Positions 2,498 to 19,525 of a DNA stretch of 57,344 nt are shown piece after piece (position 1 is the stretch's first letter; each line of letters opens with the position of its first letter). The notes beneath the pieces are model-generated. The model had not been told where the DNA came from. It did not search any database and worked only from the letters and a program-made list of their open reading frames with translations. A program made the position numbers and the translations under genes. Origin of the DNA: a virus; IMG/VR virus record IMGVR_UViG_3300018410_000010, positions 1 to 57,344 of that record; one strand, written 5' to 3'.

Positions 2498-3259
2498 TTA
2501 GTTTCTTCTCTCAATATCATCTTCAGACAGCATGTCACCCATCCAAACTTCAATTACTTTACAAGGATAGTTGCCGACGTTTGTCGCTTTATGCCACGAT
2601 TTCTTGGGAATGTCGATGCTTTCGCCAGATTTGTAAACTTTCGATGTTTTATAACCATTGCTAAATTCAAGAGACATTTCTAAATTACCGTCAACAATAT
2701 GCCAATGCTCAGATCTTGCAAAATGTCTTTGATCGCTTAATGATTTACCAGGATCAATAGTAAGTTCTTTTACTTTCCAATGTCCATTTTGATCTAGATC
2801 TTTGTATCTACCCCACAATCTCTCTGTTGTTGGTTTATCCCATTCGGATAGAATCCAAGAAGAGCTATTCTTTTTATCCTCTCCTCCTACGCCAAACACA
2901 AAGTTTACATCATCAAATACCATTTCTGGTATGTTTTCTTTTGTGCGATCACCACCATTTGCAAAAATGATTTCAGAATTATTGGGAAAATACTCTTTAA
3001 TATGCCGAATAGCATCAATGGCTGAATCATCATCGTCATTAAAATCAAAGGCATAACCTACTGATTTAATATTATGGACAATATCTTTACGTTCCTCCCA
3101 AGGCATAAATGGCTTACCTTTTTTACGAGTTAACCATGCATCACTATTTACACCTACACAAAGAATATCACCAAGTTCTTTTGCTGCATTAAAATAAGCA
3201 ATATGTCCAGAATGTAGAGGATCGAATCCTCCTGTAACAATAACAACTCTCATTCCCAT
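2498..3259 (-). CDS. RfaE/TagD-like nucleotidyltransferase fused to a cupin
   Basis: Two domains are visible. Residues about 1-145 are a cytidylyl/adenylyltransferase-type Rossmann domain with GGFDPLHSGH near the start (the nucleotide-binding HxGH motif), GVNSDAW, a GGDR motif and a late SSSWILSEW segment, close to the RfaE2/TagD family that joins a nucleotide to a sugar- or alcohol-phosphate. Residues about 165-252 are a cupin like the sugar-isomerase domain of ManC/AlgA: RHFARSEHWHIVDGN, IPKKSWHKATN and a final EDDIERRN. I chose the ATG at 3259, which overlaps the upstream stop as TAATG; a longer frame from 3286 would overlap more and has no motif support. It probably acts with the next two genes in making or attaching a sugar. 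The substrate is unknown. Confidence 0.8.
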   Translation of the reverse strand: MGMRVVIVTGGFDPLHSGHIAYFNAAKELGDILCVGVNSDAWLTRKKGKPFMPWEERKDIVHNIKSVGYAFDFNDDDDSAIDAIRHIKEYFPNNSEIIFANGGDRTKENIPEMVFDDVNFVFGVGGEDKKNSSSWILSEWDKPTTERLWGRYKDLDQNGHWKVKELTIDPGKSLSDQRHFARSEHWHIVDGNLEMSLEFSNGYKTSKVYKSGESIDIPKKSWHKATNVGNYPCKVIEVWMGDMLSEDDIERRN

Positions 3260-4518: not shown

Positions 4519-5561
4519 TATTCAGTATCCGTTAAAAATTGCAAAAACACACTTTGGGGAATTCTTAAGATAAAACTCGCGTTGTCTTGAAAACCAAAAG
4601 AAACCAAAATATCATCTCCAAGTATCGTCATGCCAGTCACAAATTCAATGTTATAATCTGTGTTTGTTACATGATCCCAATATGTACCAAGAAAATGAAA
4701 CTTGCGTGAAGCATGAATTAAATTCCAATCATTATCCCAAATTATGACACGGTGGCCATAATCACCATCTTTACGACCGAATGGATCTCTAAGAAGATTT
4801 GTTTCATGAATAAAAGCCATGCGCTGATTATCATTAATTCGTAGAACTTGAGAACCGCCTCTAAAGTCTTTTGCGAAAGGTTTACGTTCACCTTCATCTA
4901 CAAAGACTTCAGTTGTTGTGCCTTCTTCAATGTCAAATTGAACAACTTGAGTTGGGTTACACCATTTAACAAAATGATATGGCATATCCAAAATAGGCAT
5001 CCAATTCTTTTCACAATAGCTTCCGTCATTTCCTGGTGCGGGAATTGGATGTCGAGAAAGTTCCTGCCATTCTTGAGCTTCTTCATTAAACTCTATATGA
5101 CAAAGCTCCATTCTTCCTTTACCTTTATCATCATAGCAATCTCTACGAACTCCACAAAGGTACAATTTACCATCCCACTCGAATAAACGAGCATCTTCTA
5201 ATCCAATAAAATTCCAAGTTGGATCAGTATCTAATTTCATGTTAACACGTCCGGCACTGACGAGATTTAAGTTCCCGTCAAGTTCACACATTACATTGTG
5301 AGTTCTAAGTGTTACGTCGTTTTCAGGATGAATATAGACAAGCGGTCCCCACTGATGGGGGAACTTTTTTCCTTCACTATGATAGAGAATATAGTTTACG
5401 TGTCTAACGTTTATAAGAATCTTTCCATCATGTATAAAGATAGATGGATTCATAATTCCTGTTTCATTACCTAAAACAGATTTTGGTAATAAAATAGGAT
5501 GTAGCGATCCGCCTCTTTTTAAAGCGTAGGTCGCAAGACCACCCATATGCAAATCGTGCAT
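4518..5561 (-). CDS. Beta-propeller glycosidase-like protein (GH43/GH130-like fold)
   Basis: This 347-residue protein has the repeated blade pattern of five-bladed beta-propeller glycan enzymes: NPSIFIHDGKILINVR, GLEDARLFEWDGKLYLCGVRRD at about residues 120-141, EKNWMPI at about 184-190, RGGSQVLRI, then a C-terminal blade with NTDYNIEFVTGM. GLEDAR followed by EKNWMP is typical of GH130-type mannoside phosphorylases and of related proteins linked to glycosyltransferases. The start has a very strong site, GGAGGTGAC, directly upstream. It leads a three-gene set with the methyltransferase and the nucleotidyltransferase-cupin. It may trim, phosphorolyse or merely bind a glycan. Catalytic residues cannot be confirmed by eye. 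Confidence 0.65.
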   Translation of the reverse strand: MHDLHMGGLATYALKRGGSLHPILLPKSVLGNETGIMNPSIFIHDGKILINVRHVNYILYHSEGKKFPHQWGPLVYIHPENDVTLRTHNVMCELDGNLNLVSAGRVNMKLDTDPTWNFIGLEDARLFEWDGKLYLCGVRRDCYDDKGKGRMELCHIEFNEEAQEWQELSRHPIPAPGNDGSYCEKNWMPILDMPYHFVKWCNPTQVVQFDIEEGTTTEVFVDEGERKPFAKDFRGGSQVLRINDNQRMAFIHETNLLRDPFGRKDGDYGHRVIIWDNDWNLIHASRKFHFLGTYWDHVTNTDYNIEFVTGMTILGDDILVSFGFQDNASFILRIPQSVFLQFLTDTE

Positions 5562-6419: not shown

Positions 6420-6977
6420 TTACTGTCTATGCAAATATAAATCGACCGGTATACAAATTCTAAGGCTAGAAAGATAAGGATTTACGCAATGATATGCAAA
6501 GCTTGGAAATATCATATAGTCACCAGTTTTTGGCGCATGAATATGGTTTTGAAACAAAGAAAAAAACCAATCATCATATCCTCTATTACAATTCGATCTA
6601 GGATCTGAAAATACTATTTCGCCTCCTACGTCTTTTTCTTCTACCATAATGTAAAATACTCCAGACAATTGAGAACCAGAATGATTATGATTTGACATAC
6701 TATAGTACTTACCATGTCCGGTAATCCAAGCTTTCATCTCATAACTATCATAATCTGAAATTCTTTTACCAATTGTATTTATAAGATATTCATCAAATTT
6801 ATTATAAACTACTTTTTTAAACTTTTCCATTGTGGAATGTTTATCAGCAAAAATACTGTTTCCATCTACGCCGGGTCTTGAGCTTAAATCATAGTTAGAA
6901 AAAATATATTCGACTAAGCCTTCTACTTCAAAATTACCAGAGCCAAACATAGTCGGCCATAAAGCATCCATTTTCAT
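6420..6977 (-). CDS. Putative 2OG-Fe(II) oxygenase (2OG-FeII_Oxy_5-like)
   Basis: This 185-residue protein has the layout of the putative 2OG-Fe(II) oxygenases common in marine T4-like phages. Visible are H97xH99 in SNHNHSGSQLSGVFYI, GGEIVFSDPR at 118-127, PKTGDYMIFPS at 149-159, H163 in FAYHCVNPY and R173 in SLRICIP. These match the iron ligands and the 2-oxoglutarate-binding Arg of the double-stranded beta-helix fold. Such enzymes hydroxylate a C-H bond in a protein, peptide or small molecule. It shares SDPRxNxNRG with the plus-strand oxygenase at 12516-12977. It faces the island across a 101-base divergent region and may work with it. A late promoter and a GAGGTGA ribosome-binding site precede it. 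Confidence 0.8.
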   Translation of the reverse strand: MKMDALWPTMFGSGNFEVEGLVEYIFSNYDLSSRPGVDGNSIFADKHSTMEKFKKVVYNKFDEYLINTIGKRISDYDSYEMKAWITGHGKYYSMSNHNHSGSQLSGVFYIMVEEKDVGGEIVFSDPRSNCNRGYDDWFFSLFQNHIHAPKTGDYMIFPSFAYHCVNPYLSSLRICIPVDLYLHRQ

Positions 6978-7078: not shown

Positions 7079-7537
7079 ATGACATTTGACCAATTTGAAG
7101 CTTACTTGTTATCCGAAGCTTGTTATCAAAATCATGACGTCTCTATTATCGATCATCAACAATTGCAGCACTATATAAAAGCAAACGACTTTATAGAATA
7201 CAACGCTTTGATGTCTAGCCATTTAGCTCAAGGTGTAGTCACTATTAAAGTAGAGCAAATGGAGCGCTATTGGGAGTTCGATGATAGAACAATTCATGCT
7301 TTCTATAATCCAAAAAATGGTCCAACATTTCCTGAACATACTGACGATGTAGATGTTATTATCGAATGTAAAGATGGAATTAAAAATATGGAAGTAGACG
7401 GTAAAGAAATTGCATTGCAACCGGGTGATAAGTTGATTATATCAAAGGGAACAATGCACAAAGCATTAAATTATGAAAAGGCATTAATGGCATCACATGG
7501 GATTGGCGACACAGCGTCACTTGAGCGTTTACGTTAA
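7079..7537 (+). CDS. Cupin protein with HTD...H metal site
   Basis: This 152-residue protein is the first gene of the island. The cupin core is at about residues 70-145: FYNPKNGPTFPEHTDDVDVI carries H87 and D89, GIKNMEVDGKEIALQPGDKL is the central turn, and KGTMHKALN gives H127. H-x-D plus a distal His is the two-His-one-carboxylate pattern of non-haem iron enzymes, so it could be an oxygenase, an isomerase-like cupin or a metal-dependent binding protein. The N-terminal 60 residues look helical and are unassigned. Its last 41 bases overlap the start of the first radical SAM gene in another frame, so the two are probably coupled. The ribosome-binding site (AGGATTAG) is ordinary. Confidence 0.75.
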   Translation: MTFDQFEAYLLSEACYQNHDVSIIDHQQLQHYIKANDFIEYNALMSSHLAQGVVTIKVEQMERYWEFDDRTIHAFYNPKNGPTFPEHTDDVDVIIECKDGIKNMEVDGKEIALQPGDKLIISKGTMHKALNYEKALMASHGIGDTASLERLR

Positions 7538-8522
7538 AACGACAGAGACTTGTAATTTAAACTGTTCTCACTGTTTTACTTCTGGCATTAATGGAGCAAA
7601 AATTTATTTTGATCCAGTTCGTACTGCCAATTGGGTGAATCAGCTAGACAGAGATACAATTTTTTACGAATTTCACGGGGGTGAGCCTATGCTTGCCTCC
7701 GTCGAATCTATGCGCAAATTTGTTGAACTTACAAAGGGTGAAGGTGTCGATTATGGTATGACAACAAATTTGGTGTACAAACTTACAGATGAAAAACTTG
7801 AGTTTTTTGACGACGTCTTAAATAAGAGAATTGGAACGTCTTGGGATCCTACTATACGTTTTACAAATGATAGGCAAAGAAAACTATGGGAAGATAACGT
7901 AAAACTGCTAGTTGAACGCGGCTATACAATTAAATGTTTTGTGAGTTTAAGTAAAGATGTAATTAATATGGAACCAAGAGATATTGTTTCTTATATGGAA
8001 TCTCTTGGTGTTAAAGAACTAGATTTTGAGCGTATTACTATGGATGGTAACGCTAAAGGAAAAATGTGGCCATCTAACATTGAATTAGATAAATGGTTTA
8101 TGAGATATCATAATCAAATCGAAAGTAGAGATTCTATTTTTCATGTAATTATGGAAAACATTTACGCTAAATTTGAAGATAATAATCCATCTCGTGGTAC
8201 TTGGTGTAGAGATTGCGAACAAAAACTATTGACAATTAATGCAGATGGTAGTATAGCTGGATGTCCTAATACTGCTCCTCATAAAGCATACGGGCATATC
8301 GATACTCCCGCAAAAGAAGTAATGAAATCTACTGGCCGATGTGATATTATAATTAAAGAATTAAATAGAAATCCTGCATGCTTTTCTTGTCCGGTATTTG
8401 ATGTATGTGGATCAGATTGTCATCAATTAGAGTGGGAAGGTGAAATATGCCCGTCTCCTAAGAGTTTAATGCAGCATCTGAAGGATATAAATAATGTACA
8501 TATACTTAGAATTGGAGCTTAA
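7497..8522 (+). CDS. Radical SAM/SPASM enzyme 1, candidate peptide maturase
   Basis: This 341-residue protein has the radical SAM cluster motif C19xxxC23xxC26 (CNLNCSHC), followed by FHGGEP, the SAM-amine motif. The C-terminal region is a Cys-rich SPASM domain with C237, C240, C256, C295, C298, C304, C308 and C318, including ADGSIAGCP and CFSCPVFDVCGSDC. SPASM enzymes bind extra iron-sulfur clusters and most known ones modify ribosomal peptides or enzymes (sactipeptide, cyclophane and PQQ-type maturases). It lies directly before the gene whose product ends in CHYS repeats, with only two bases between them, so that peptide is its obvious candidate substrate. The ATG at 7497 overlaps the cupin gene; no better start is seen before C19. 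Confidence 0.88.
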   Translation: MGLATQRHLSVYVKTTETCNLNCSHCFTSGINGAKIYFDPVRTANWVNQLDRDTIFYEFHGGEPMLASVESMRKFVELTKGEGVDYGMTTNLVYKLTDEKLEFFDDVLNKRIGTSWDPTIRFTNDRQRKLWEDNVKLLVERGYTIKCFVSLSKDVINMEPRDIVSYMESLGVKELDFERITMDGNAKGKMWPSNIELDKWFMRYHNQIESRDSIFHVIMENIYAKFEDNNPSRGTWCRDCEQKLLTINADGSIAGCPNTAPHKAYGHIDTPAKEVMKSTGRCDIIIKELNRNPACFSCPVFDVCGSDCHQLEWEGEICPSPKSLMQHLKDINNVHILRIGA

Positions 8523-8524
8523 AA

Positions 8525-9106
8525 ATGGTATCTTTAAATAATAATGTTAGAAAGTCTAATGTTATTGACAGATGGGAAGATTATGTCGCTGACGACGCAA
8601 GAGGTGGTCTTGTGTGGGGATTAGACGCTAAGCCTTTCAGTACTGCTCCAGACGATTGGTTTGGAGGAGATATTGCTAGCCCACCTGCAAAAGACTCTTA
8701 CGTTTCAGACAGCAATATTAGTGGAACACTTATTGAGGCAACAGCCACGCGAAACGCGCTAGTGACTGGCACAACACAGTGGACTCATCTAAGAAATATG
8801 CGCGCGGTTCAATTATTTAATTCCCAAGGCACCCAGCAGGGAACATTTGATGACACACAAAAAGCATACCAAGAAACTGGTCAAAGAGTAGATGTTACAG
8901 ATCCTGCCATTCCAACACAAGGGCCTTCAAATAATGGAAATCTCATTACTATCGGCTCAGATTCTGCACAAACTGGTATGGAGCACTATCTTGCTAGACT
9001 TCGCGGCGCTTATAGAACTATTCGAGATGACGCAGTATATAGAGAACAAACTGTCTGCCATTACAGCTGTCACTATAGCTGTCACGGCTCAAGAGGAAGA
9101 AGATAA
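8525..9106 (+). CDS. Candidate RiPP precursor ending in CHYS/CHYS/CHGS repeats
   Basis: This 193-residue protein is of no family I recognise. Residues 1-170 are hydrophilic, without Cys, signal peptide or membrane segment, and contain ARGGLVWGLDAKPF, a Gly/Ser/Thr-rich middle and a helical LARLRGAYRTIRDDAVYR stretch. All its cysteines are in the last 16 residues, CHYSCHYSCHGSRGRR (178-193), three copies of Cys-His-Xaa-Ser followed by a basic end. A long leader and a short repetitive Cys/His/Tyr/Ser tail beside four radical SAM/SPASM genes is the pattern of a ribosomal peptide precursor. The tail resembles the His-Xaa-Ser repeats of HxsA. The start has GGAG 8 bases upstream; the stop overlaps the next ATG as TAATG. 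Alternatives: a metal-binding tail, or overlapping CX3CH haem-type sites. Confidence 0.7.
   Translation: MVSLNNNVRKSNVIDRWEDYVADDARGGLVWGLDAKPFSTAPDDWFGGDIASPPAKDSYVSDSNISGTLIEATATRNALVTGTTQWTHLRNMRAVQLFNSQGTQQGTFDDTQKAYQETGQRVDVTDPAIPTQGPSNNGNLITIGSDSAQTGMEHYLARLRGAYRTIRDDAVYREQTVCHYSCHYSCHGSRGRR
9056..9091 (+). repeat. Three tandem 4-residue CHxS units (candidate core)
   Basis: Twelve-base units encode CHYS, CHYS and CHGS. Codons differ between units (TGC/TGT, CAT/CAC, TAC/TAT, AGC/TCA), so the repeat is kept at the protein level and is not a recent copy at the DNA level. It is followed by codons for RGRR and the stop. Confidence 0.85.
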
Positions 9107-9846
9107 TGAATACAAGAGATACAGTGGCTCCTATTCCTATTGAATTACTTAAGGAGTATTTTAGTGATGATAGTATCGTTTTTAATATTGACTATGAAAA
9201 AAGTCTTTTAAAGGGTGATAAGATTATTACGTATCTAAGCAATTTAGATGTGCCATGCAAACTTACAGGTTTTGATAATGTTTCTTTAGAAGATAAAATG
9301 TCTTTAGTAAGAGATTATATGAATTCAAATCTCATAATTAACAGCAATGAACTTGAAGTATGCGTACTTAAAATATTACATAACGCAGCCATATATGATT
9401 TTGTGCGTCGATATGACGTTCAAGATATTTTAGACGAAAAAGAAATAGAGATTTTTTGCGAAAAAAATAAAGAAATAATTCATAAGTGGCTTGTTATGCT
9501 AGCAAGCTGTTCAGTGTATGCCATATATTCGATTGAAGATTTTAAAGATAAGGTAAAAGAAGAATTTGAAACTATAGATGATTATGATTATTGTGGCGTG
9601 AATTTTGTGCAATTATTTAAATACGAAGATACTCAGGTTTTGTTAACAAATCAAGACTTAGATGTATATTATTTTGAAAAACAATTTAACGAGCCTATGT
9701 TTAAAGGAGCTAATATATTTTATTATTGGCAAACAGAGGAAAACACAATGGCAATTATGGCATGGGGAATATCAACCGGAGAAATAAAACACGGTGATTT
9801 CACCCGTGCTATAGAAAAAGGATACGAAAATGTTTCTGCTTTTTGA
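9106..9846 (+). CDS. Unrecognised acidic helical protein of the island
   Basis: This protein of 246 residues matches no family I know. It is acidic and mostly helical, with ELLKEYFSDD at the start, LEDKMSLVRDYMNSNL, a Glu/Lys-rich EKEIEIFCEKNKEIIHKW around 120, and a beta-like C-terminal third (FVQLFKYEDTQVLL, NIFYYWQTEENTMAIMAWG). There are four scattered Cys with no clear metal motif and no signal peptide. Its ATG overlaps the stop of the candidate precursor, so the two are made together. A role in recognising or presenting the precursor, or in protecting from it, would fit the position, but nothing in the sequence proves it. Confidence 0.6.
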   Translation: MNTRDTVAPIPIELLKEYFSDDSIVFNIDYEKSLLKGDKIITYLSNLDVPCKLTGFDNVSLEDKMSLVRDYMNSNLIINSNELEVCVLKILHNAAIYDFVRRYDVQDILDEKEIEIFCEKNKEIIHKWLVMLASCSVYAIYSIEDFKDKVKEEFETIDDYDYCGVNFVQLFKYEDTQVLLTNQDLDVYYFEKQFNEPMFKGANIFYYWQTEENTMAIMAWGISTGEIKHGDFTRAIEKGYENVSAF

Positions 9847-11002
9847 TAGAGTTTATGTTAAGTACGATTTTTTACTTGACAACAACGTTGATAATTTAAC
9901 TATCAGCCCTAATTTATCAATTCTAAACTGGGATGCGCTTGAGCTGGTGCATTCAAACATGGGTAATGAAATGCACAGGGTGCAGTTATATGAGCAACTA
10001 TTTCCCGGTTTTACATCTCCTGCAATGCCTGAAGGACAAGATCCTTTGCGAGAAATTGATACTCCCTACCCAAATGATCTAGCGTTTTTTCAAGCATTAT
10101 TAGATAAAGGACGCCTTAATATACACGTAGATACTGTTGCTTACGACCAACTCTTTTCTAAATTCTTAAAAATATTCTTTCCAAATATGCCAAGGGAAGT
10201 AGTATGGAAAACTTATAACATATTTAGAACAAATAGTCAACTACTTAATACAACTTCTTTTATATGGGGAGTTGAAGGATATGATGCAGTACAGCAAGCA
10301 AATGCAGATGCATGGGTGCCTAGAACAAAGACTCAATTTTTAGAAGTATTTGATGCAACAACTTTAGATTTACCTGACGCAGATTATAATACATTTAGAA
10401 CTAATGCCAAGCAAAAAATTGGAATTGAATGGATGATTGCAAATAGATTAAACGGCGATCAAACATACGATGTTTCTCTTGGCGAAAAAATGTATAAGCT
10501 TATGTCACAGCGTATTAATGAAGAAGTACAGTTTCTTAAGTCATCGTTATTTAGTAATCTATTTAGAGGATGGTCTCAAACAGTATTAGGATTGTCGTCA
10601 GTTGATGCTAATACAGATTTAATGGATCTTCGAGATACTAATGATAAAACCCGATGGTTATTTGATGATGACGATAAATTCTCATCTCCTGATTATCTTG
10701 CTCGTCACCCAAATATTCAATTTAGTACAATACGTACAAATATTTTGCAAGCGGTTACCGCAAATAATACTCCAATCGAAGAAGCTCTTACAGATGATAT
10801 GATGAATTTCGTATATAATAATACCGCATTACAAAACTTTACAACTGCTGATATTACTACAATATTAGATAATGATAGAAATCATTTAGGTCCATCAGTA
10901 TTTGAATCTGAAGATAGAATTAAGGTAAATTCTTTATTTTTAAGTTACATTTATAAACTTAAAAACAACGATGATAGTGAGTTAGGCTTATTTAGTTTAT
11001 GA
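9830..11002 (+). CDS. Unrecognised 390-aa protein of the island
   Basis: The protein begins MFLLFDRVYVKYDFLLDNN and continues with mostly helical, Asn/Asp-rich sequence (FLKIFFPNMPREVVWKTYNI, FLEVFDATTLDLPDADYNTF, IGIEWMIANRL, EEALTDDMMNFVYNN). It has no cysteine, no P-loop, no radical SAM motif, no signal peptide and no membrane segment. It overlaps the gene before it by 17 bases and the oxygenase after it by 4, so it belongs to the same transcript. Possible roles are a scaffold or a peptide-binding partner for the modification enzymes. I cannot assign it; a structure prediction would be most informative. Confidence 0.6.
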   Translation: MFLLFDRVYVKYDFLLDNNVDNLTISPNLSILNWDALELVHSNMGNEMHRVQLYEQLFPGFTSPAMPEGQDPLREIDTPYPNDLAFFQALLDKGRLNIHVDTVAYDQLFSKFLKIFFPNMPREVVWKTYNIFRTNSQLLNTTSFIWGVEGYDAVQQANADAWVPRTKTQFLEVFDATTLDLPDADYNTFRTNAKQKIGIEWMIANRLNGDQTYDVSLGEKMYKLMSQRINEEVQFLKSSLFSNLFRGWSQTVLGLSSVDANTDLMDLRDTNDKTRWLFDDDDKFSSPDYLARHPNIQFSTIRTNILQAVTANNTPIEEALTDDMMNFVYNNTALQNFTTADITTILDNDRNHLGPSVFESEDRIKVNSLFLSYIYKLKNNDDSELGLFSL

Positions 11003-11541
11003 TTCAAAATTGCTATGAGTCTTCGATATGGATTAAACAATTTGTAAATAGCGATAATTTCAATCAAGACGTTTTAAATACAACTAAAGCAATATCAGCC
11101 ACGGTTCCTGAGCCTGTGGCTGATTATAATATTGACTTGTGGCAAACAGATAATATGCTCACAATTAAGTCTTACTTTACTGAAGGATTTAATGCGCTTT
11201 GTGAGCAGTACGAAGAATCATCTTCTTATAATATAGATTCTATGAATATTATCAATCCTATGAAGTTTGGCGATTTTAAATCATGCCATACTCATGATGT
11301 GATTGATGCCTTTGGTGTATATTATCTAAATGACTCTGAAGAAGGCGGTAAGCTTAGATTATATGATCCACGATTCTTAAATAAAAAATCATTTACCAAA
11401 GAAGCATATATAGAAATAGAACCTAAAACTGGTTTAATGGTTGTAGCTCCTTATTATATTTGGCATGAAGTTACTCCATACCTCGGAAAAGAAACGAGAT
11501 ATAGTTTAGTATGTAATATGGTATTTGATAATGTTGTCTAG
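10999..11541 (+). CDS. Putative 2OG-Fe(II) oxygenase A
   Basis: The C-terminal half of this 180-residue protein is a typical putative 2OG-Fe(II) oxygenase: CHTHD at 96-100 (H97, H99, D100 as iron-ligand candidates), FGVYYLND, GGKLRLYDPR at 116-125, PKTGLMVVAPYYIWHEVTP with H156, and KETRYSLV with R167 as the likely 2-oxoglutarate anchor. The N-terminal 85 residues are a less conserved alpha/beta lead. The ATG overlaps the previous stop by four bases, and radical SAM 2 overlaps its 3-prime end, so the two are coupled. The substrate is unknown; a residue of the island peptide is a candidate. Confidence 0.8.
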   Translation: MIQNCYESSIWIKQFVNSDNFNQDVLNTTKAISATVPEPVADYNIDLWQTDNMLTIKSYFTEGFNALCEQYEESSSYNIDSMNIINPMKFGDFKSCHTHDVIDAFGVYYLNDSEEGGKLRLYDPRFLNKKSFTKEAYIEIEPKTGLMVVAPYYIWHEVTPYLGKETRYSLVCNMVFDNVV

Positions 11542-12547
11542 TATAATTCCCACACAAAACGTAGATATAATAACGAAACAAAATAAAAGATCTCAAGATG
11601 GTGAGATCATTGTTACGTTATTTGAATATTGCAATCTCAGCTGTACGTTTTGTAATCAAGATCATAATAGTCTTGAAGGCATAGATACAATTTTAGAAAA
11701 AATACAGGTTGTACAGAATATTATCCAAAAAACTCCAAAGGACCATTATAGTGTGCACTTTATGGGAGGCGAAGTATTTGCTGATGGTTTGCCTGATACA
11801 GTATTTGATGATTATGTAATCTTATGCCATGAATTAAATACATGGGCGCATCAACAAAATATTAGTCTTGAAATTTGTTTTACAAGTAATATGGTCTTTG
11901 ATAATAGAGAAAGATTAGATAACTTTCTTTATCAATCTAATCCTACGTTACTTACAAGCTTTGATCCAGCAGCAAGATTTAATAAAAAGAATTTTAAAAT
12001 ATTTCAAGATAATGTGAAGCACTACAAAGACTTTATTAAGTCTGCTAATGTGATTATGACTAGACCAACTATAAATAAGTTCATGAATGGCGACGTAGAG
12101 TTTTTTGATTATCTTTACGACAACTTCGATATATATTTTGATTATTATACACCAGAGAAAAATATGAAGTTGTTTATTCCAAATGATATTCAACTGCGCG
12201 ACTTTATGATTTATATGCTTGAGCATTATCCTAAAGCTTTACCATTTGCTGATTATACAAATAAAGTAAAAAAGCAAATGAGCTGCATGGATACAATAAC
12301 AATTATGCCAAACAATTCATTTGGCGCCTGTACTATACTGTTGAATAATTTTAAAAATGTAACGGCAACAAAAATCGAAATGGAACAAGAATGGTTCAAG
12401 CAATATAATTGTCTTGAATGCCCACATTTTCAATACTGTTCTATGGGATGTTTTTTGTCAAACCATATGCAAAGTTTTAGAACACAAGAAGCATGCTGGT
12501 TAAGTGAGGTTTATGATGTGGTCCACTCCAATACAAGTATTCAATAA
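11531..12547 (+). CDS. Radical SAM/SPASM enzyme 2
   Basis: I place the start at the ATG at 11531 (338 residues) rather than the in-frame TTG six bases before. C34xxxC38xxC41 (CNLSCTFC) is the radical SAM cluster motif and FMGGEVF the SAM-amine motif. The C-terminal SPASM region has CMDTITIMPNNSFGACTILL followed by CLECPHFQYCSMGC and a final Cys in EACWLSE. This arrangement fits peptide- or protein-modifying SPASM enzymes. It lies directly after oxygenase A and overlaps oxygenase B. Its sequence differs strongly from radical SAM 1, so it probably catalyses a different step or acts at a different residue. Confidence 0.85.
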   Translation: MLSSIIPTQNVDIITKQNKRSQDGEIIVTLFEYCNLSCTFCNQDHNSLEGIDTILEKIQVVQNIIQKTPKDHYSVHFMGGEVFADGLPDTVFDDYVILCHELNTWAHQQNISLEICFTSNMVFDNRERLDNFLYQSNPTLLTSFDPAARFNKKNFKIFQDNVKHYKDFIKSANVIMTRPTINKFMNGDVEFFDYLYDNFDIYFDYYTPEKNMKLFIPNDIQLRDFMIYMLEHYPKALPFADYTNKVKKQMSCMDTITIMPNNSFGACTILLNNFKNVTATKIEMEQEWFKQYNCLECPHFQYCSMGCFLSNHMQSFRTQEACWLSEVYDVVHSNTSIQ

Positions 12548-12977
12548 TGGATATCAAGATCCATTCGAAAGATATAAAGATTTTTTAAAAGATCATTATA
12601 AGCTTGATTTAAACGATTTTAAATACGACATACGAGAATGGAAAACAACTCCAGGCTCAGGCTATTGGATGTCTCCGCATAATCATGGTCACTCTCATTT
12701 TACTTCAATATATTATAATCACATTTCTGGTGAAGGTGGTGAATTAATTCTTCATGATCCAAGAGTAAACGCAAATAGAGGATTTCCACAAGAGTTTGGA
12801 TCTGAGTTTGCTCCTTACATTATTCAGCCAGAAACTGGAATGACTGTGATATTTCCATCTTACGTTTATCATACAGCTGCGCCATTTAGAGGCATAATAA
12901 GAGAAGCAAGCGTAAGTGAGATACAGCTTGCGAGTATAAGTACTGGGGATTCATATTTAGGAGCAACATCGATATGA
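12516..12977 (+). CDS. Putative 2OG-Fe(II) oxygenase B
   Basis: I choose the second of two adjacent ATGs (12516; 153 residues) because AAGTGAGG ends 6 bases before it; the open frame also has a GTG at 12504 lying inside that site. The motifs are HNHGHSHFTSIYYN (H55, H57), GGELILHDPR at 74-83, QPETGMTVIFPSYVYHTAAP with H119, and IIREASV with R129. HDPRVNANRG closely matches SDPRSNCNRG of the minus-strand oxygenase at 6420-6977, so these two are paralogues. It overlaps radical SAM 2 by 32 bases and the next oxygenase by 4. The substrate is unknown. Confidence 0.8.
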   Translation: MWSTPIQVFNNGYQDPFERYKDFLKDHYKLDLNDFKYDIREWKTTPGSGYWMSPHNHGHSHFTSIYYNHISGEGGELILHDPRVNANRGFPQEFGSEFAPYIIQPETGMTVIFPSYVYHTAAPFRGIIREASVSEIQLASISTGDSYLGATSI

Positions 12978-13609
12978 ATGTAAATCAATTTTATAAGGAC
13001 GGATATGATGAATGGGAAATGCCTTCACATTTAAAAGCTATGATCTGGGGACAACTACTCAGTGAGAATTGGATTGATCATCCGGTTTATAAAGCAATTC
13101 CAGATTGGAGTATTAATCAAGGTGGTGAAGCTCAACTATATCGACAAAAATATGAGCGTAGAGATGAGCAAGAAATTAATCAAAAATCTTTAGAGCTTAT
13201 TCCTGAAACATATAGAATGGTAATTGAAGAGTTATTTAATGAAGGTTATTATCATGAATGGTTTCAAAACGTGTGCGGATATAATTATAAACTTAAATTC
13301 GTCGATGTATGGAATGGCTCAGACGATCTAGGATGGCATTGGGATGGAGTTGAAGATCACGATATTGGATTCTTAATTTACTTTACTGAAGAACAAAACT
13401 GGAAAAAAGAATGGCAATCATACTTATCTCTTGGCGAAAGAGATTGGCAGCAAGAAAATATTGAGCTTAAACACACGGCTTATCCTGCTAATGGTAAGAT
13501 TATATTGTTAAATAATATGAATCCAAGGTTTGTGCATTCTGTTGCAAAACTAACAAATGATAATGTAAATAGATATACAATTAACGCAGGCTTTTCTTTA
13601 TGGAATTAA
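12974..13609 (+). CDS. Putative 2OG-Fe(II) oxygenase C (HxD...H...R)
   Basis: This 211-residue protein carries a full set of 2OG-Fe(II) oxygenase residues: H122-W-D124 in GWHWDGVEDHD, H188 in NPRFVHSV and R200 in NRYTINAGF. The N-terminal 90 residues contain a WGQLLSENW segment and helical sequence. It is more like oxygenase E at 15129-15836 than like A or B: the W-H-x-D-G box, ILLNN, FVH-V and RYTI-A-GF are shared in the same order. It overlaps oxygenase B and radical SAM 3 at its two ends, which suggests coupled translation. It probably hydroxylates a residue or small molecule within the same pathway. Confidence 0.8.
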   Translation: MNVNQFYKDGYDEWEMPSHLKAMIWGQLLSENWIDHPVYKAIPDWSINQGGEAQLYRQKYERRDEQEINQKSLELIPETYRMVIEELFNEGYYHEWFQNVCGYNYKLKFVDVWNGSDDLGWHWDGVEDHDIGFLIYFTEEQNWKKEWQSYLSLGERDWQQENIELKHTAYPANGKIILLNNMNPRFVHSVAKLTNDNVNRYTINAGFSLWN

Positions 13610-14595
13610 TTATTAAACCAACTGAACGTTGCAATTTTAAATGTACTTTTTGTTCAAGTACATCGATTGCTGATGACATAAAAGATCAGTTGGGTTTAAG
13701 CTATATTTTCAAATTTCTAAAAAGATTTCCAAACACCAATACAATTATTGTAAATGGCGGCGATCCATTAATGATGGATCCTAAGTATTATCGAAAATTG
13801 TTAGATCATATTGAAATTTTCAATTATCAAACAACCGTTTCTTTTACTACAAACCTATGGCCTTTTTATAAGAATCCTGAAAAGTGGATAGATATTTTTA
13901 CACATCCACGAATGGGAATTACAACAAGCTTTCATTATGGTGATTCTAGACTTAAAGGTGATTATTCAGTATTTACTGAAGAAGATTTCTGGGCCGTATC
14001 AGATAAAATGTTAGAACTCGTCGGTTATAGACCCGATTTTATTTCAGTAATTGACGAAGCAAACGAAGATACAGCTTTAGATAATGTAAGGCTTGCAAAA
14101 AAGATGGGTGTTGAATGCAAATTAAATTATGCTATGGCATCAGGTATTCAATCTCGCCCATATCAATTATCTAAAATGTATAAATTATATTTAGATGTTT
14201 ATGAAGCTGGTTTAACCGACTGGGAATTTAATACTAAGCAAATGATTAAACGTCTACGCAATGAAGCTTTAATGTGTCCACAAAATAGAAATTGTGATGA
14301 TACAATCAGAGCACTGCAACCTAGCGGCGACTATTACTCATGCGGTGCTATGGGAGACGATAGAGAATATTCTATTGATTTTAATCGAGAAATGAATGGC
14401 GAATTTTTTAGACCATTGCAAGAAGATCTCGAAATACAAACAATGCATGACGGATGCTATACATGTCCAATGTTCCAAATTTGTAATGGATGCAAGAAAA
14501 CAGTCAAAGATACTAAACGACATAATATGGTTGAAGAACACTGCACATTAATGAAACAATTAGCTCCAAGGATTATCGATGCAAATAACGGATAA
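13600..14595 (+). CDS. Radical SAM/SPASM enzyme 3
   Basis: This 331-residue protein has C11xxxC15xxC18 (CNFKCTFC) close to the N-terminus, IIVNGGDPLM as the SAM-amine motif, and a barrel of alternating strands and helices. The C-terminal part holds the extra cluster cysteines: MCPQNRNCDD, LQPSGDYYSCGAMG, then CYTCPMFQICNGC and a last Cys in EEHC. This is a complete SPASM-like set. It follows oxygenase C with a 10-base overlap and precedes oxygenase D with a 17-base overlap. The N-terminal segment before the first Cys is very short, so a peptide-recognition domain is not present at the N-terminus; recognition would need the barrel or a partner protein. Confidence 0.85.
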   Translation: MELIIKPTERCNFKCTFCSSTSIADDIKDQLGLSYIFKFLKRFPNTNTIIVNGGDPLMMDPKYYRKLLDHIEIFNYQTTVSFTTNLWPFYKNPEKWIDIFTHPRMGITTSFHYGDSRLKGDYSVFTEEDFWAVSDKMLELVGYRPDFISVIDEANEDTALDNVRLAKKMGVECKLNYAMASGIQSRPYQLSKMYKLYLDVYEAGLTDWEFNTKQMIKRLRNEALMCPQNRNCDDTIRALQPSGDYYSCGAMGDDREYSIDFNREMNGEFFRPLQEDLEIQTMHDGCYTCPMFQICNGCKKTVKDTKRHNMVEEHCTLMKQLAPRIIDANNG

Positions 14596-15139
14596 TGCCC
14601 TTTCGAATATTGATTATAAGAAAATTCATCATTATTTTACTTCAGAAATACCAATATGGCGTTTTATGCCTGGAATTAATGATAATGTTAACAGTACTAA
14701 TCAGCCTGAATACAAACCGACTTCATGGGGTTTTACATGCAATATTAGCAATACTATAGCGGACATTAAGGATAAGCATGCTTATAGATTATTAAAACCT
14801 CTTATTTTAAATAAAGAAAAATTAGTGAGAATCAGATGCGGATTTATAGTGAATGTAGGTCCGTCTAAACTACATAAACCTCATATTGATCAGCAATCAA
14901 TAGAACATATTACTCAACTTTATTATTTAACAGATAGTGATGCTGTTACAAACGTATTCGAAGAATATGGAAATGACCCAAAATATGATAGTTATCAACC
15001 CGAAGATTTTACTGTTAAATTCCGATGTACACCAAAAAAGAATAGAATGTTTATTTTTGATGGAATGCATTGGCATAGTTCTTCGCCCGTTTTGGGTAAA
15101 GAAGCAAGATTAGTGTTGTCGATTAATTATGCTAAATAG
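14579..15139 (+). CDS. Putative 2OG-Fe(II) oxygenase D
   Basis: In this 186-residue protein the iron and cosubstrate residues are H102-I-D104 in KLHKPHIDQQS, H166 (or H164) in DGMHWHSSSPV and R177 in KEARLVLSINY. This is the pattern of small 2OG-Fe(II) oxygenases that act on aspartyl/histidyl or prolyl-type side chains, though the substrate cannot be read from sequence. AAGGA lies 7 bases before the ATG. It overlaps both neighbours. It is not close to A, B, C or E, so the island holds at least three distinct oxygenase types. Confidence 0.78.
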   Translation: MQITDNALSNIDYKKIHHYFTSEIPIWRFMPGINDNVNSTNQPEYKPTSWGFTCNISNTIADIKDKHAYRLLKPLILNKEKLVRIRCGFIVNVGPSKLHKPHIDQQSIEHITQLYYLTDSDAVTNVFEEYGNDPKYDSYQPEDFTVKFRCTPKKNRMFIFDGMHWHSSSPVLGKEARLVLSINYAK

Positions 15140-15836
15140 AAGTCCAAATTTTAACGATCTATATTTAAAAGGCGCCGATATCGTAGAGGTTGATTCGTCA
15201 TTTAATGCTATGCTTTATGGATTGCTAATGGCTGAAACCTTTGTCGGTGATGGCGCAATTCAAAATCCAATTTGGGATAGAGAATATCATGAAAGAGATT
15301 TAGATGTTTATGTTAAAGGAAAGCAGCCTTATTTAGAATTTTTCCAAGAAGTTGTTAAATCAGAATATTTTGATTATTGGAGGCATGTTTACGGAGATTT
15401 TGATGAAATACATGTAAACATTAATAAGGTAGACCAAACCGGGGAGATGCCTTGGCACTTTGATGGCTTCGATGGAACTTTATTACAAATTCTTTGTTAT
15501 CCAAACATGGATGATTTTGAGGAAAAAGATGGCGGTCATTTTTTAGTTGGTAGACCTGATAATTTATATCGAAACGGAGACCCTATGCCTCATTGGGATC
15601 CTCAATCTTCTTTAGATAATATTTTAACAAAAAACGTAAAAGTTACACAAAAGTATGTACCTAATCGAAATAGTGTGGTAATATTAAATAACAATGATCC
15701 ATCTTTTGTTCATAGAGTAACTCAGTTAAAAGCAGATAAAACTCGATATACAATTATCGCAACGCTTGGCTTTAGTTCTCTTTGGTCTCAAAACAAATTA
15801 AAATTGGGTCATTATAAAGGCACCAAATTATTATGA
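15129..15836 (+). CDS. Putative 2OG-Fe(II) oxygenase E (paralogue of C)
   Basis: This 235-residue protein has H110-F-D112 in MPWHFDGFDG, H195 in PSFVHRV and R206 in TRYTIIATLGF, a complete 2OG-Fe(II) set. Shared blocks with oxygenase C include the Lxx(A/S)E start region, W-H-x-D-G, IL-NN, FVH-V and RYTI-A-GF. Compared with C it has a longer insert between the HxD and distal His (about 130-175, with GGHFLVGRPDNL). It ends with a basic tail (LKLGHYKGTKLL). It overlaps oxygenase D by 11 bases and radical SAM 4 by 4. Together with C it supports a past duplication of an oxygenase plus radical SAM unit. Confidence 0.8.
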   Translation: MLNRSPNFNDLYLKGADIVEVDSSFNAMLYGLLMAETFVGDGAIQNPIWDREYHERDLDVYVKGKQPYLEFFQEVVKSEYFDYWRHVYGDFDEIHVNINKVDQTGEMPWHFDGFDGTLLQILCYPNMDDFEEKDGGHFLVGRPDNLYRNGDPMPHWDPQSSLDNILTKNVKVTQKYVPNRNSVVILNNNDPSFVHRVTQLKADKTRYTIIATLGFSSLWSQNKLKLGHYKGTKLL

Positions 15837-16738
15837 TTATATCTTTGAATCCAACATATCTATGTAATTTTAGATGTGATTTTTGTTATCTCACTTCAGA
15901 ACAATTGGCAGATAAAAATAAAATTGATTTAGAATTGTTAGATCAAAGACTGCTTGAAGTTTCTAATTATCAGCCTATCAGATATATTGATTTATATGGC
16001 GGTGAGATTAGTACTTTAAATGATGAGTATTTTTATGATTTAAAAAGAATTATTCGTAAACATTACCAAGGCGAAATAAACATTGTAACTAATTATGCTT
16101 CTCCAAAAAGCTATATGCATGACAATGATATTTCACTATCTGTATCATTTGATTTTGAAGCTCGTGAAAGATCTGATCTAGTATTTGCGAATATGCTTGT
16201 AAGTCCGGTTCCTATTTCTGTGCTTATTCTTGCTAGCCCTAAAGTCATAAATATGGACGTTGGGCAAATGATTCAACAACTTTCAATGCTTTCAAATATA
16301 CGTTCGGTAGAAATTAAACCGTATTCTACAAACCAAGCAAACGCGCATAACGTAACTCATAAAGACTTCGAATTGTTTGTTGCTGATTGGTTAAACCGCG
16401 ATCTACCGTTTGAGTTTGAAAATAGGCATCGTATTCATGAATCTTTATCTGGAAATTATGACGCATTTAGTAATGACCATGTATATATAAATCCAAACGG
16501 CAAGTTTGCTGTGCTCGAATTTGATAAAAATGATAATGAATACTTTTTAGAATTAGATACTTTTAAAGATTATCTTAAATGGGCAGATGAAGAACCGATA
16601 AAAAATGTCTCTGATATATGTAGAGAATGTAAGTGGTACGGTAAATGTTTGACTGAACATTATAGATATGTTAAAGATTTAGATAATGGCTGTAACGGCT
16701 ATAGAGGACTTTTAGAATGGCAAGAAAAAAAATATTGA
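15833..16738 (+). CDS. Radical SAM enzyme 4 with reduced SPASM-like end
   Basis: This 301-residue protein is the smallest of the four. C11xxxC15xxC18 (CNFRCDFC) and DLYGGEI give the radical SAM core; IVTNYAS and LSVSFDFEA continue the barrel. The C-terminal end keeps only CRECKWYGKC and a later GCNGY, while the upstream position where the others have DGS..GC reads NPNGKFAVLE with no Cys. It may therefore bind only one auxiliary cluster, or share ligands differently. The YxCNFxCxFC opening is close to radical SAM 3, in line with a duplicated unit. It overlaps oxygenase E and the halogenase gene. Confidence 0.8.
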   Translation: MIISLNPTYLCNFRCDFCYLTSEQLADKNKIDLELLDQRLLEVSNYQPIRYIDLYGGEISTLNDEYFYDLKRIIRKHYQGEINIVTNYASPKSYMHDNDISLSVSFDFEARERSDLVFANMLVSPVPISVLILASPKVINMDVGQMIQQLSMLSNIRSVEIKPYSTNQANAHNVTHKDFELFVADWLNRDLPFEFENRHRIHESLSGNYDAFSNDHVYINPNGKFAVLEFDKNDNEYFLELDTFKDYLKWADEEPIKNVSDICRECKWYGKCLTEHYRYVKDLDNGCNGYRGLLEWQEKKY

Positions 16739-18057
16739 TTGTTGGTGGTGGTACTGCGGGTTGGATGACCGCATTAGTTCTTTATCAAAAATACGATGTT
16801 ATGATGATTGAATCACCGAGTGTACCTATTATTGGTGTAGGAGAGTCAACTACAGAAACGGTAATGGATGCTTTGCGGCAAGGTGGTGTTGATATTAATG
16901 ATTTTGTTAAGCATACAAATGCTACACCTAAATATGGTGTAAACTTTTCTAATTGGAGCTCTAAAGATTACTTTCATGCATTCGGAGAAAATTTTTTAGA
17001 AAAAATCTTTGGTGTCGCAGAATGTAATGACTTTTTAGCAGACTGCCATAGATCTGGCAAAGATGTTATATCACTAAGTCCATATACTCATATGGCCCAA
17101 AAAGGAATAGATCCAGTTTTTGGAACAGATGAAGAGTTTTGGTGGGACACAGCTTTACATTGGGAAGCTAGTAAAGTTCCAGAATTTTTTAAAAAATTCC
17201 TTGAAAATAAAATTGTACACATTTACGACCATGTTAATGACGTGCAATCAAACGATTTTGGTATTACAAGTGTAAACGGCCATGTCGCAGATTATTATAT
17301 TGATTGTACTGGCGGTAAAAGAATTTTAAGTAATCATTTAGGAATTAAATGGCAATCTTGGAAAGATGTAACTCCATTAGATTCTGCAATTACATTTAGT
17401 ACTGAAGCAAAGCCAAAAACTTACTATACAAACGCGCATGCTATGAATTGTGGATGGGAATGGTCTATTCCATTACAAGATAAAATGAATCATGGATATG
17501 TATATTCATCTAAACATTGCACACGAGAAGAAGCTCTTGCAGAAATTAAAGCAAAAAGAGGTGATGTTGTAATTAATGGCGACGTTCATTTTGAACCAGG
17601 AGTTTTAGAAACTATAGCTACAAAAAACTTATGCTCAATTGGATTGTCTGCTCATTTTATCGAACCTTTAGAGGCTACAAATATTGAACTTACTGTTATT
17701 ATGGCTAAAGAATTTGATAAAGCTATTGAAAATAATAGTATCGATGAATTAGAAACAAGACTGCAGCAAATTGTAGAAGAAATAAAAAGATTTGTTTTAT
17801 TTCATTATTCTATACCTGAAAAACAAGGACAGTTCTGGAAAGATATATATCAACAGTATACACAAGATGATGTCTTAGAGCGTAAGCAAATTTATCCTTG
17901 GCATCCATTTAATTGGTATTCTGTAGCTCAAGGAATAGGATTTAAAAGAGAATTAGATTTTGTGGATATAGAAGTAGATTATTTAACAACTGAATTTGAA
18001 GTACATAGGAAGGTGGCAGAACTTGAAAGAATGGAAAGTAAGACAAGAAGTCTATAG
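16717..18057 (+). CDS. Flavin-dependent tryptophan-halogenase-like protein
   Basis: This 446-residue protein shows the FAD-binding GGGTAGW at 10-16, IIGVGESTT near 38-46, the equivalent of the catalytic lysine of PrnA at K72 in TPKYGVNF, the halogenase signature WEWSIP at 247-252, and GLSAHFIEPLEATNI at 309-323. These are the diagnostic features of the PrnA/RebH family, which makes HOCl at the flavin and passes chlorine or bromine to an aromatic ring through the lysine. It is about 90 residues shorter than PrnA-type enzymes, mainly in the C-terminal substrate-binding part, so free tryptophan may not be the substrate. Such genes are known from marine phages. No flavin reductase is seen in the window; the host would supply it. 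A peptide Tyr, His or Trp is a possible target. Confidence 0.85.
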   Translation: MARKKILIVGGGTAGWMTALVLYQKYDVMMIESPSVPIIGVGESTTETVMDALRQGGVDINDFVKHTNATPKYGVNFSNWSSKDYFHAFGENFLEKIFGVAECNDFLADCHRSGKDVISLSPYTHMAQKGIDPVFGTDEEFWWDTALHWEASKVPEFFKKFLENKIVHIYDHVNDVQSNDFGITSVNGHVADYYIDCTGGKRILSNHLGIKWQSWKDVTPLDSAITFSTEAKPKTYYTNAHAMNCGWEWSIPLQDKMNHGYVYSSKHCTREEALAEIKAKRGDVVINGDVHFEPGVLETIATKNLCSIGLSAHFIEPLEATNIELTVIMAKEFDKAIENNSIDELETRLQQIVEEIKRFVLFHYSIPEKQGQFWKDIYQQYTQDDVLERKQIYPWHPFNWYSVAQGIGFKRELDFVDIEVDYLTTEFEVHRKVAELERMESKTRSL

Positions 18058-18412
18058 AAGATTAAACGAATCTTTAACCGATGATTTAAATAAAGTAGAT
18101 ATTGTTTGGCGCCCAGAAACAATTGTGGAAGACGCTTTGCGTCATTGGGATGAAGAAGTAGATGAATGGATATATCCTGGTAAATCCTATTTTGTTGCTA
18201 TATGTTATGCGTATTGGATATCAGAAGACTTTGAAGAGGACTTTGAAGAAGTTTTAAATGACCCAGATTTGCTTCCAGGCGATCCATATTTTTTACCATA
18301 CAGCCAAGCAGAAGAAGTATATGACGAAATACTTTCAGCAGTGCGTTATATAGAAGACGGCGCTATGGTATCTGAAGTAAGAAATTATTATGATGAAGAG
18401 ATGCAGTTATGA
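18023..18412 (+). CDS. Unrecognised acidic protein, TTG start
   Basis: The frame is open from an ATG at 17996, but GGAAGGTGG lies 6-7 bases ahead of an in-frame TTG at 18023, which I take as the start (129 residues) and which reduces the overlap with the halogenase gene to 35 bases. The protein is very acidic and helical: KEWKVRQEVYRRLNES, DIVWRPETIVEDALRHWDEEVDEW, then EDFEEDFEEVLND and a Tyr/Glu-rich end. It has no catalytic motif I can name. Coupling with the halogenase suggests an accessory role, for example a partner or inhibitor, but this is only position. Confidence 0.6.
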   Translation: MKEWKVRQEVYRRLNESLTDDLNKVDIVWRPETIVEDALRHWDEEVDEWIYPGKSYFVAICYAYWISEDFEEDFEEVLNDPDLLPGDPYFLPYSQAEEVYDEILSAVRYIEDGAMVSEVRNYYDEEMQL

Positions 18413-18963
18413 TTGAAAGTAAATGGTCAAGTAAAGGCGAAGATACGCATTTTCATAGACCAGATGATTTTAAAGATTTAAAATCTTTGAAAAAAGATAG
18501 ACCTTATTTGTCATTAGAAAATATTGAATTAGTTGGTATTTCAGATACTAGTATTAATATTACATATAATGGAGCGCCGCCTGCAACTATATGCGCTTTT
18601 TTTGGTGTAGATAATCATGTCTTTTGTGATTATTATGCGCTTGAATTGTGTGCAGACGGATCTGAAATTTTAAAAATATATGATCAGGATTTATCTAAAC
18701 ATCCTTTGCCATCGTTACCCGTTGGCGCAAGATTAGATCCCCTTAAATCTGGAATTGGAATATATTATCCAGATGCTCAATTAGCAAAAATATATTTCTT
18801 ACATGACAATCCAGAACTTGTTCATAAGTGGTGGGGATCTAAAAATCCACCAGGACAAATTTCTAGGCTTACTTATTTTGGCGTAGAATTTGATAGAAAA
18901 ACTTTAATTACAACAGATATTTCACAATATTCAATTTATGATAAGGAGGAAGACCTTGGCTAA
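18409..18963 (+). CDS. Unrecognised 184-aa protein of the island
   Basis: I do not recognise this protein. The sequence alternates beta-type segments (LENIELVGISDTSINITYNG, HVFCDYYALELC, GSEILKIYD) with a LPVGARLDPL turn and a Trp-rich VHKWWGSKNPPG near 140. It has three Cys and no signal peptide or membrane segment. Its start overlaps the previous gene by four bases and its end overlaps the TTG start of the P-loop gene by eight. It is clearly part of the same operon. A beta-sandwich or lectin-like binding protein is conceivable, but this is not shown. Confidence 0.6.
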   Translation: MIESKWSSKGEDTHFHRPDDFKDLKSLKKDRPYLSLENIELVGISDTSINITYNGAPPATICAFFGVDNHVFCDYYALELCADGSEILKIYDQDLSKHPLPSLPVGARLDPLKSGIGIYYPDAQLAKIYFLHDNPELVHKWWGSKNPPGQISRLTYFGVEFDRKTLITTDISQYSIYDKEEDLG

Positions 18964-19525
18964 ATCAAACAAAACAATCGCAGTGGTAGGCGCGCATGGT
19001 GTCGGTAAAAACACTATTTGTATTAAACTTTTAGAACGCGAAAAATTTAAAGAGCGTGGTGTGAATGTCACGTATATGCCAGAAACAGTTCGCTCTACTA
19101 TGTTTATGACCGGTGAAATTTTAGAAAAAGAAATAGGCGGTAATTATTATTCTTGTAGCTGGTTGTATCATAGGCATTGGAGTCAAATGCTAGAACATCA
19201 ATATAGTTGTGATGTTTTTATTACTAAAAGACTTCCTCTAGATTATGTTGTATTTAATGAATGCGCATTTAAGCTTGGATTAATTGACAGAATGCTAGAT
19301 CCTCAATATAAAGAATTAGCAGTAATGCAAGCAGCTGATTTTGATGAAGTGTACTTTGTACGCCATAATCCAGAATATGAATTAGTAGAAGATAGTGTAA
19401 GAAAAGGGGCTGCAGCCAGTTCTGAACTACAACCCCTTTGGGATAAACGTTATAAAGAAATTATAGATCACTGGAATATTCCTGTTATTGAAGGAACATG
19501 CGGCGAACTATTAGAGTTATTTTAA
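18956..19525 (+). CDS. P-loop NTPase / nucleotide-kinase-like protein (AAA_28/NadR-like), TTG start
   Basis: The start is TTG at 18956, with AAGGAGG 6 bases upstream; an ATG at 18938 would place that site inside the gene. The 189-residue product begins with a beta strand and a P-loop, TIAVVGAHGVGKNT, then PETVRSTMFM, a FITKRLPLDYVVFN segment that fits a Walker B / DRGxxD-like region, and RHNPEYELVEDSVRKG near the end, as in NadR-type or AAA_28 kinases. The usual Ser/Thr after GK is Asn here with Thr one place later, an unusual P-loop. It is the last gene of the island and meets the fibre gene end-to-end, overlapping by four bases. It may phosphorylate a nucleotide-like cofactor; the substrate is unknown. 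Confidence 0.65.
   Translation: MAKSNKTIAVVGAHGVGKNTICIKLLEREKFKERGVNVTYMPETVRSTMFMTGEILEKEIGGNYYSCSWLYHRHWSQMLEHQYSCDVFITKRLPLDYVVFNECAFKLGLIDRMLDPQYKELAVMQAADFDEVYFVRHNPEYELVEDSVRKGAAASSELQPLWDKRYKEIIDHWNIPVIEGTCGELLELF

Follow-up and report, generated by a model that had tools for sequence, protein, structure and literature searches.

Flavin-dependent halogenases dedicated to a ribosomal peptide include MibH (NAI-107), SrpI (a proteusin brominase), and ChlH (lasso peptide), according to excerpts of two papers (PMC12615548, PMC10858898). Listings of halogenase genes in phages go back to 2010 or earlier. In the excerpts available, prnA is reported from several of 16 cyanophage genomes (PMC3037559), a halogenase is counted in 20/153 (PMC10452541), and VirX1 is presented as a characterised cyanophage halogenase (PMC8407142). 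The literature covered names no natural substrate of a phage halogenase and, judged by titles and the beginnings of abstracts, the open-access collection searched describes neither a phage CHxS-tail protein nor a halogenase placed within a radical SAM cassette of a phage. Phage halogenases and peptide halogenases are already known, and the cassette with its CHxS family is the more novel part of the locus presented here.

The window, that is, the whole stretch of 57,344 nucleotides analysed (positions 1 to 57,344 of IMG/VR record IMGVR_UViG_3300018410_000010), is a 57-kb virus record with T4-like parts, including a phrog_211 head-tail adaptor and tail fibres. Its source is a marine virus of bacteria. 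A co-directional run (7079-19525) leads from a cupin gene through rSAM1, a 193-aa tail protein, u246, u390, and 2OG oxygenases interleaved with rSAM2-4 to the halogenase, and then to u138, u184, and an AAA_28 protein (Table 1). This cassette thus holds four radical SAM enzymes plus 2OG oxygenases. The preliminary description had placed the halogenase within a peptide island, and the island is real: the tail protein and a radical SAM/2OG cassette surround the gene. The arrangement is RiPP-like, a precursor with a conserved CHxS core lying beside maturases (the radical SAM genes), and the halogenase is encoded together with the precursor and other tailoring enzymes, as in RiPP and peptide halogenase loci. 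The first 22 bases of the halogenase gene are shared with the end of rSAM4, and at its 3' end it runs into the u138 reading frame. The true start of u138 may be a TTG near 18023, inside the halogenase end and after GGAAGG.

Table 1. Features of the CHxS cassette and its borders (positions in the window; aa, amino acids).
Feature	Positions	Strand	Remarks
oxy0, 2OG-Fe(II) oxygenase, divergent, adjoins cassette	6420..6977	-	
Cupin protein, first cassette gene	7079..7537	+	
rSAM1, radical SAM/SPASM enzyme, precedes tail-protein gene	7497..8522	+	
CHxS-tail protein, 193 aa, C-terminal end TVCHYSCHYSCHGSRGRR; putative substrate (Tyr180, Tyr184)	8525..9106	+	phrog_35144 match in tail only
u246, conserved cassette protein, no assigned function	9106..9846	+	phrog_20767
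u390, cassette protein, no assigned function	9830..11002	+	
oxy1, 2OG-Fe(II) oxygenase	10999..11541	+	
rSAM2, radical SAM enzyme	11525..12547	+	
oxy2, 2OG-Fe(II) oxygenase	12504..12977	+	
oxy3, 2OG-Fe(II) oxygenase	12974..13609	+	
rSAM3, radical SAM enzyme	13600..14595	+	57% identity to Burkholderia phage FLC6 gp79
oxy4, 2OG-Fe(II) oxygenase-like	14579..15139	+	just under Pfam cut-off
oxy5, 2OG-Fe(II) oxygenase	15129..15836	+	
rSAM4, radical SAM enzyme	15833..16738	+	3' end overlaps halogenase start
Halogenase, short flavin-dependent, 446 aa	16717..18057	+	ATG to TAG; GGGTAGW 10-16, K72, WEWSIP 247-252, E319 of EPLEATN
u138	17996..18412	+	homologue of FLC6 gp85, phrog_20737
u184, no assigned function	18409..18963	+	in both lineages with a halogenase; a few others match more weakly
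AAA_28/nucleotide-kinase-like protein	18938..19525	+	in this sample only in two halogenase-bearing lineages
Tail-fibre-like protein, 3060 aa	19522..28704	-	relatives of C-terminal part just upstream of many CHxS cassettes

Pfam scans of 20 proteins recognised neither a flavin reductase nor a protease or exporter. Host enzymes could supply a leader protease and an exporter, or the product may stay a full-length protein. Membership in the His-Xaa-Ser (Hxs) system was considered, but the radical SAM scores lie far under the family cut-offs (rSAM1 to HxsB, 41.1 bits for a cut-off of 370; rSAM3 to HxsC, 31.2 bits for 267.9). Elsewhere in the window, the region left of the island (2498-5561) encodes a cytidylyltransferase-cupin fusion, an FkbM-like methyltransferase protein, and one more gene, possibly glycan-related. 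A collagen-like 1523-aa protein with GxQG repeats (35386-39957) and a 3903-aa protein (40391-52102) are both probably tail structures.

Profile, motifs, and full-length fold confirm the halogenase as an intact flavin-dependent enzyme of the PF04820 family. The match to Trp_halogenase in Pfam (E 1.1e-72, 245.8 bits for a cut-off of 21) spans residues 5-387. The FAD motif, Lys72, and WEWSIP, previously noted as intact, are all present, together with Glu319, and an alignment of 35 viral homologues shows no change at K72 or E319. The protein had also been described as some 90 residues shorter than PrnA/RebH, which holds (446 aa vs 538 aa for PrnA chains and 550 aa for tagged RebH chains). This shortness is shared by all nine cassette halogenases (421-450 aa), other sampled phage homologues being mostly of 450-537 aa, apart from a 355-aa piece and an ORF of 680 aa. 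An AlphaFold2 model (pLDDT 90.0, pTM 0.90) superposes over residues 1-441 on full-length SttH, PyrH, PrnA, and RebH (Z 36-40, about 430 residues), so that a PrnA/PyrH-like fold can be predicted with confidence. Because the short length is common to the cassette clade and the fold is full, truncation or decay is ruled out.

On these motifs and this fold, the gene very probably encodes an active halogenase. Loss of halogenation, the fold now serving as a flavin monooxygenase or as an inactive partner, is very improbable. It would fit the reading EPLEATN where PyrH has EPLESTG, the WCWTIH that replaces WxWxIP in two of the three clade-B members (clades defined below), and the faster divergence of the halogenase relative to its neighbours (45.5% identity vs 53-86% in the related contig L006). 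However, K72, E319, and WEWSIP are retained in the window and in all of clade A, and EPLEAT is also found in most other viral homologues.

The distribution of the gene speaks to its role. Two halogenase-bearing lineages were distinguished: clade A, comprising the window and its relatives with CHYS as first repeat, and clade B, comprising the records G011, G012, and G025. PF04820 was found in 10 of 33 records (seven from clade A, three from clade B). In clade A the gene lies between rSAM4 and u138 in all seven records whose contig passes rSAM4, the other four searched ending earlier; in clade B a short halogenase follows AAA_28. Two further record sets gave PF04820 in 2/50 and 1/50 (three records are common to both sets), but these proteins are long (open frames of 502-538 aa) and encoded about 21-23 kb from the tail gene, and are therefore not cassette members. 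Two of the three clade-B records also carry two long halogenases upstream. These tandem genes (L027:4363-7522 and L028:4404-7557; 523-530 aa, EPLESNG) bring the count to three halogenases per phage. A 56-protein tree unites clade A (six sequences) and the short type of clade B (three) in one group with a support of 0.99, gives clade A alone 1.0, and sets all nine cassette halogenases apart from every other sampled phage halogenase. Cassette radical SAM genes were seen at four of the best 80 of at least 559 viral halogenase loci, all four of the short type, and at none of the other 76. The short-halogenase clade thus appears, from these sequences, confined to CHxS cassettes in this sample. The rSAM1 tree separates clade A from clade B, and for this reason two independent acquisitions of the halogenase were considered, but the AU test did not reject a common clade (p-AU 0.246). 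In L022 (11010-11696), a deviant tail, CHYSCFTSSCHFSRGRR, lies beside a normal clade-A halogenase.

One alternative is a free-standing halogenase of small molecules or of free Trp or indole. The gene would then be an auxiliary metabolic gene, as with other halogenases of marine phages, that happens to sit in the operon. Halogenases are indeed common in phages (65 phage records and at least 559 viral stretches) and lie outside such cassettes at 76 of the best 80 loci. The fold is equally close to free-Trp enzymes, and fold comparison cannot tell these from peptide enzymes. According to an excerpt of its description, VirX1, from cyanophage Syn10, can use many small aromatic compounds (PMC8407142). 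Against this stand a halogenase clade of its own restricted to cassettes, a fixed place with overlapping reading frames, and a missing segment. PyrH, Tar14, and Th-Hal, three free-Trp halogenases, have a YYHG segment before the C-terminal GLG/GMG motif, and the tyrosines of this segment bind free Trp by its amino-acid end. The segment is missing in the window halogenase, which reads IYPW-HPFNWY there, and in the other eight cassette halogenases; BrvH and a Pseudoalteromonas enzyme likewise go without it. We regard a free-standing enzyme as distinctly improbable. That the halogenase is a dedicated cassette enzyme and not a free-Trp halogenase is well supported by its short, cassette-only clade, its mid-operon place, and the missing YYHG, and we hold its dedication to the cassette with high confidence. 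The proposal of a peptide or protein substrate in place of free Trp stands to this extent, its choice of residue being a matter of candidates.

The putative partner belongs to a family of its own. The window tail protein terminates in CHYSCHYSCHGSRGRR, for which the Ser-type counterpart is CHSSCHSNCHGSRGRR, and the tail consensus of the family is CHxSCHxSCHxSR[GS]RR. At least 131 distinct CHxS-tail proteins were found, 130 of 131 fitting CHxxCHxxCHxx with R[GS]RR (or K) after it, and Ser mostly as fourth residue. A DNA pattern of the tail matched at least 119 IMG/VR stretches, and an ORF with that tail was present in 115 of 117 new loci among the matches listed. Among species genomes, 13 of 16 matched stretches were judged by eye to be real tails, several in Bacteriovoracales MAGs. 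The family is large and widespread in phages, usually without a halogenase, and its genes often occur in tandem pairs with multi-radical-SAM cassettes. Members lie at L012, L065-L068, L083-L199, and L295-L310. CHxS tails with cassette genes in Bacteriovoracales/Bdellovibrionaceae MAGs (L296, L297, L304, L306, L307, L310) may reflect phages or prophages that infect predatory bacteria, or contigs binned in error. The window tail protein matched no family in Pfam or NCBIfam and nothing of note in the PDB; in BFVD (E up to 0.001) it matched phage proteins only, including a 296-aa protein of Atu_ph07. Its predicted structure consists of an alpha/beta domain and a poorly defined tail (pLDDT about 55). 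A tblastn search of phages with another family member gave no matches, and FLC6 gp79 found only distant radical SAM proteins in plasmids.

The same cassette is present without a halogenase in Burkholderia jumbo phage FLC6 (rSAM1 44%, rSAM3 57%, rSAM4 40%, u138 41%), whose tail is CHSSCHTSCHGSRGRR; halogenase-free relatives such as FLC6 have Ser or Thr at the first-repeat position. The excerpt available of the FLC6 paper names genes for a cupin, radical SAM enzymes, and oxygenases but assigns them no common function. Similar cassettes are found in SURPRISE13, Atu_ph07, Phosso, and pPa_SNUABM_DT01, those of Agrobacterium phage Atu_ph07 and Sinorhizobium phage Phosso being free of a halogenase. 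The Burkholderia phage version of the cassette includes two dihydrofolate-reductase-like genes (L012:16771-17984, L068:20403-21580).

A link with tail fibres is suggested by gene order. At 43 of 77 distinct-tail loci with at least 3 kb upstream, the tail ORF is preceded on its own strand, at a distance of 4 to 2645 bp, by a gene for a protein resembling the C-terminal part of the window's fibre; six more have proteins like FLC6 gp67/68 and 28 show neither in this comparison. The end of the window's fibre protein and the neighbour in Atu_ph07 both match phrog_19602 (tail fibre). This suggests a fibre-associated role for the CHxS-tail protein and, since the cassette often follows a tail-fibre gene, its product may be a virion protein. 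In the window, the 3060-aa fibre gene lies at the far end of the cassette and on the opposite strand, so a virion role is something we infer.

Which residue could be halogenated? Among the matches listed, the first-repeat residue is Tyr (Tyr180) in nine of 131 distinct tail proteins, namely in 9/9 of clade A and in 0/122 of the others, which have Ser, Ala, Thr, Asn, and the like. In a 58-row alignment, column 180 is Tyr in 7/7 clade-A rows and in 0/48 halogenase-free rows. The CHYS-tail Tyr put forward earlier thus gains support in the lineage of the window, but it fails as a general rule in both directions. That a halogenase means Tyr in the tail is contradicted by clade B, where the tail CHSSCHSNCHGS (CHSSCHSN..) is Tyr-free and is carried by the one CHxS protein of each record. 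That a tail Tyr means a halogenase is contradicted by four contigs of 27.7-55.7 kb each (L133, L134, L151, L198), which show no halogenase, an absence that is not final, as the contigs are fragments. These four encode short tail proteins in tandem whose second repeat contains Tyr (CHYSCHGSRGRR). Being confined to one clade, the link between Tyr and halogenase counts as one evolutionary event. The Tyr-less tail of clade B and the four contigs make the tail Tyr the leading candidate target, not a demonstrated one.

Other targets of a cassette halogenase were weighed alongside: Y59 or W86 in the folded N-terminal part, a tail His, a residue that arises through the radical SAM or 2OG chemistry, or a different protein of the cassette. 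A different target would cover clade B, whose tail lacks Tyr. Y59, W86, and H88 are present in 7/7 clade-A rows and rare as those residues elsewhere, W86 being mostly Tyr there; with Y180 they are the clade-A-specific residues, about equally specific, of which only Y180 lies in the tail. Moreover, u184 and AAA_28 accompany the halogenase in both lineages. Nevertheless, no single alternative residue stands out: the position-by-position table has no aromatic or His column that is common to clades A and B yet absent from halogenase-free relatives. The leader Trp once proposed does not discriminate, position 31 being Trp in 31/48 halogenase-free rows, yet W86 is Trp throughout clade A. The tail His, another earlier candidate, gives no signal because it is present in nearly every repeat, and we know of no imidazole halogenation by flavin-dependent halogenases. 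VhaA and MibH need earlier hydroxylation or crosslinks, as stated in the part available of PMC12615548, so the true acceptor may be invisible in the gene sequence. Overall, we consider a different target unlikely.

The best explanation, to which we assign a probability of roughly 0.5, is that an active, dedicated tailoring halogenase modifies the C-terminal CHxS tail of the protein encoded at 8525-9106. That the enzyme acts on some part of the CHxS protein is rather probable; for a tail Tyr as the site, the odds are even. FADH2, probably from a host flavin reductase, would react with O2 and halide to give HOX, which Lys72 and Glu319 would guide to an aromatic residue in the CHxS protein. In this lineage the most likely target would be the ring of Tyr180, in the first CHYS repeat, perhaps also Tyr184. 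Halogenation would take place alongside the radical SAM and 2OG-oxygenase modifications of the tail, and the acceptor may be the already modified tail, by analogy with VhaA and MibH. A fuller picture, which we find doubtful as a whole, has a tail-fibre-associated virion protein with its [CHxS]3 tail rebuilt by the radical SAM and 2OG enzymes and its first-repeat Tyr chlorinated or brominated by the dedicated short halogenase. If true, this would be a halogenated, RiPP-like phage structural protein or adhesin. More broadly, the finding points to a widespread phage family of CHxS tails with multi-enzyme maturation cassettes, often beside tail-fibre genes. As gene order, phylogeny, and a co-varying residue tie this viral halogenase to a defined partner protein, the question of what a viral halogenase halogenates becomes reducible to a single co-expression experiment.

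Among known enzymes, VirX1 (PDB 6qgm) also comes from a phage and belongs to the same Pfam family of flavin-dependent halogenases, with a Z of 33.6 across 430 residues. However, its chain has 531 aa, and phmmer with the window protein ranks it under most bacterial Trp halogenases. Another Syn10 halogenase gene (L283, 507 aa) has no annotated radical SAM gene around it and, in the tree, built without VirX1 itself, is distant from the window sequence. The best named phage match (30%) is the 464-aa halogenase of Pelagibacter phage HTVC008M (NC_020484), a T4-like marine phage, where the gene adjoins a 2OG oxygenase and encodes EPLEATS. By contrast with the window gene, it lies among virion genes, with no annotated radical SAM gene in 31 kb, and falls outside the cassette clade. 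The free-Trp enzymes PyrH, PrnA, RebH, and Thal share with the window protein the fold, the FAD motif, the Lys/Glu pair, and the WxWxIP-type motif, but PrnA and RebH are about 85-90 residues longer, and the YYHG of PyrH, Tar14, and Th-Hal and the cassette context differ. BrvH and similar enzymes (6frl, 9luq) are the best PDB sequence matches (E 1e-43 and 2e-41) and also lack YYHG in the printed alignments, but they are bacterial and about 50-65 residues longer. Among the peptide halogenases, sequence and fold were compared with MibH. MibH is not specially close: its E-value is 5e-30 vs 1e-43 for BrvH, its Z is 35.6, and it ranks below PyrH, BrvH, and others. Finally, MibH, SrpI, and ChlH all act on Trp, whereas in the window the partner is a phage protein of 193 aa that ends in a CHxS tail, and neither a protease nor an exporter was recognised among the proteins scanned.
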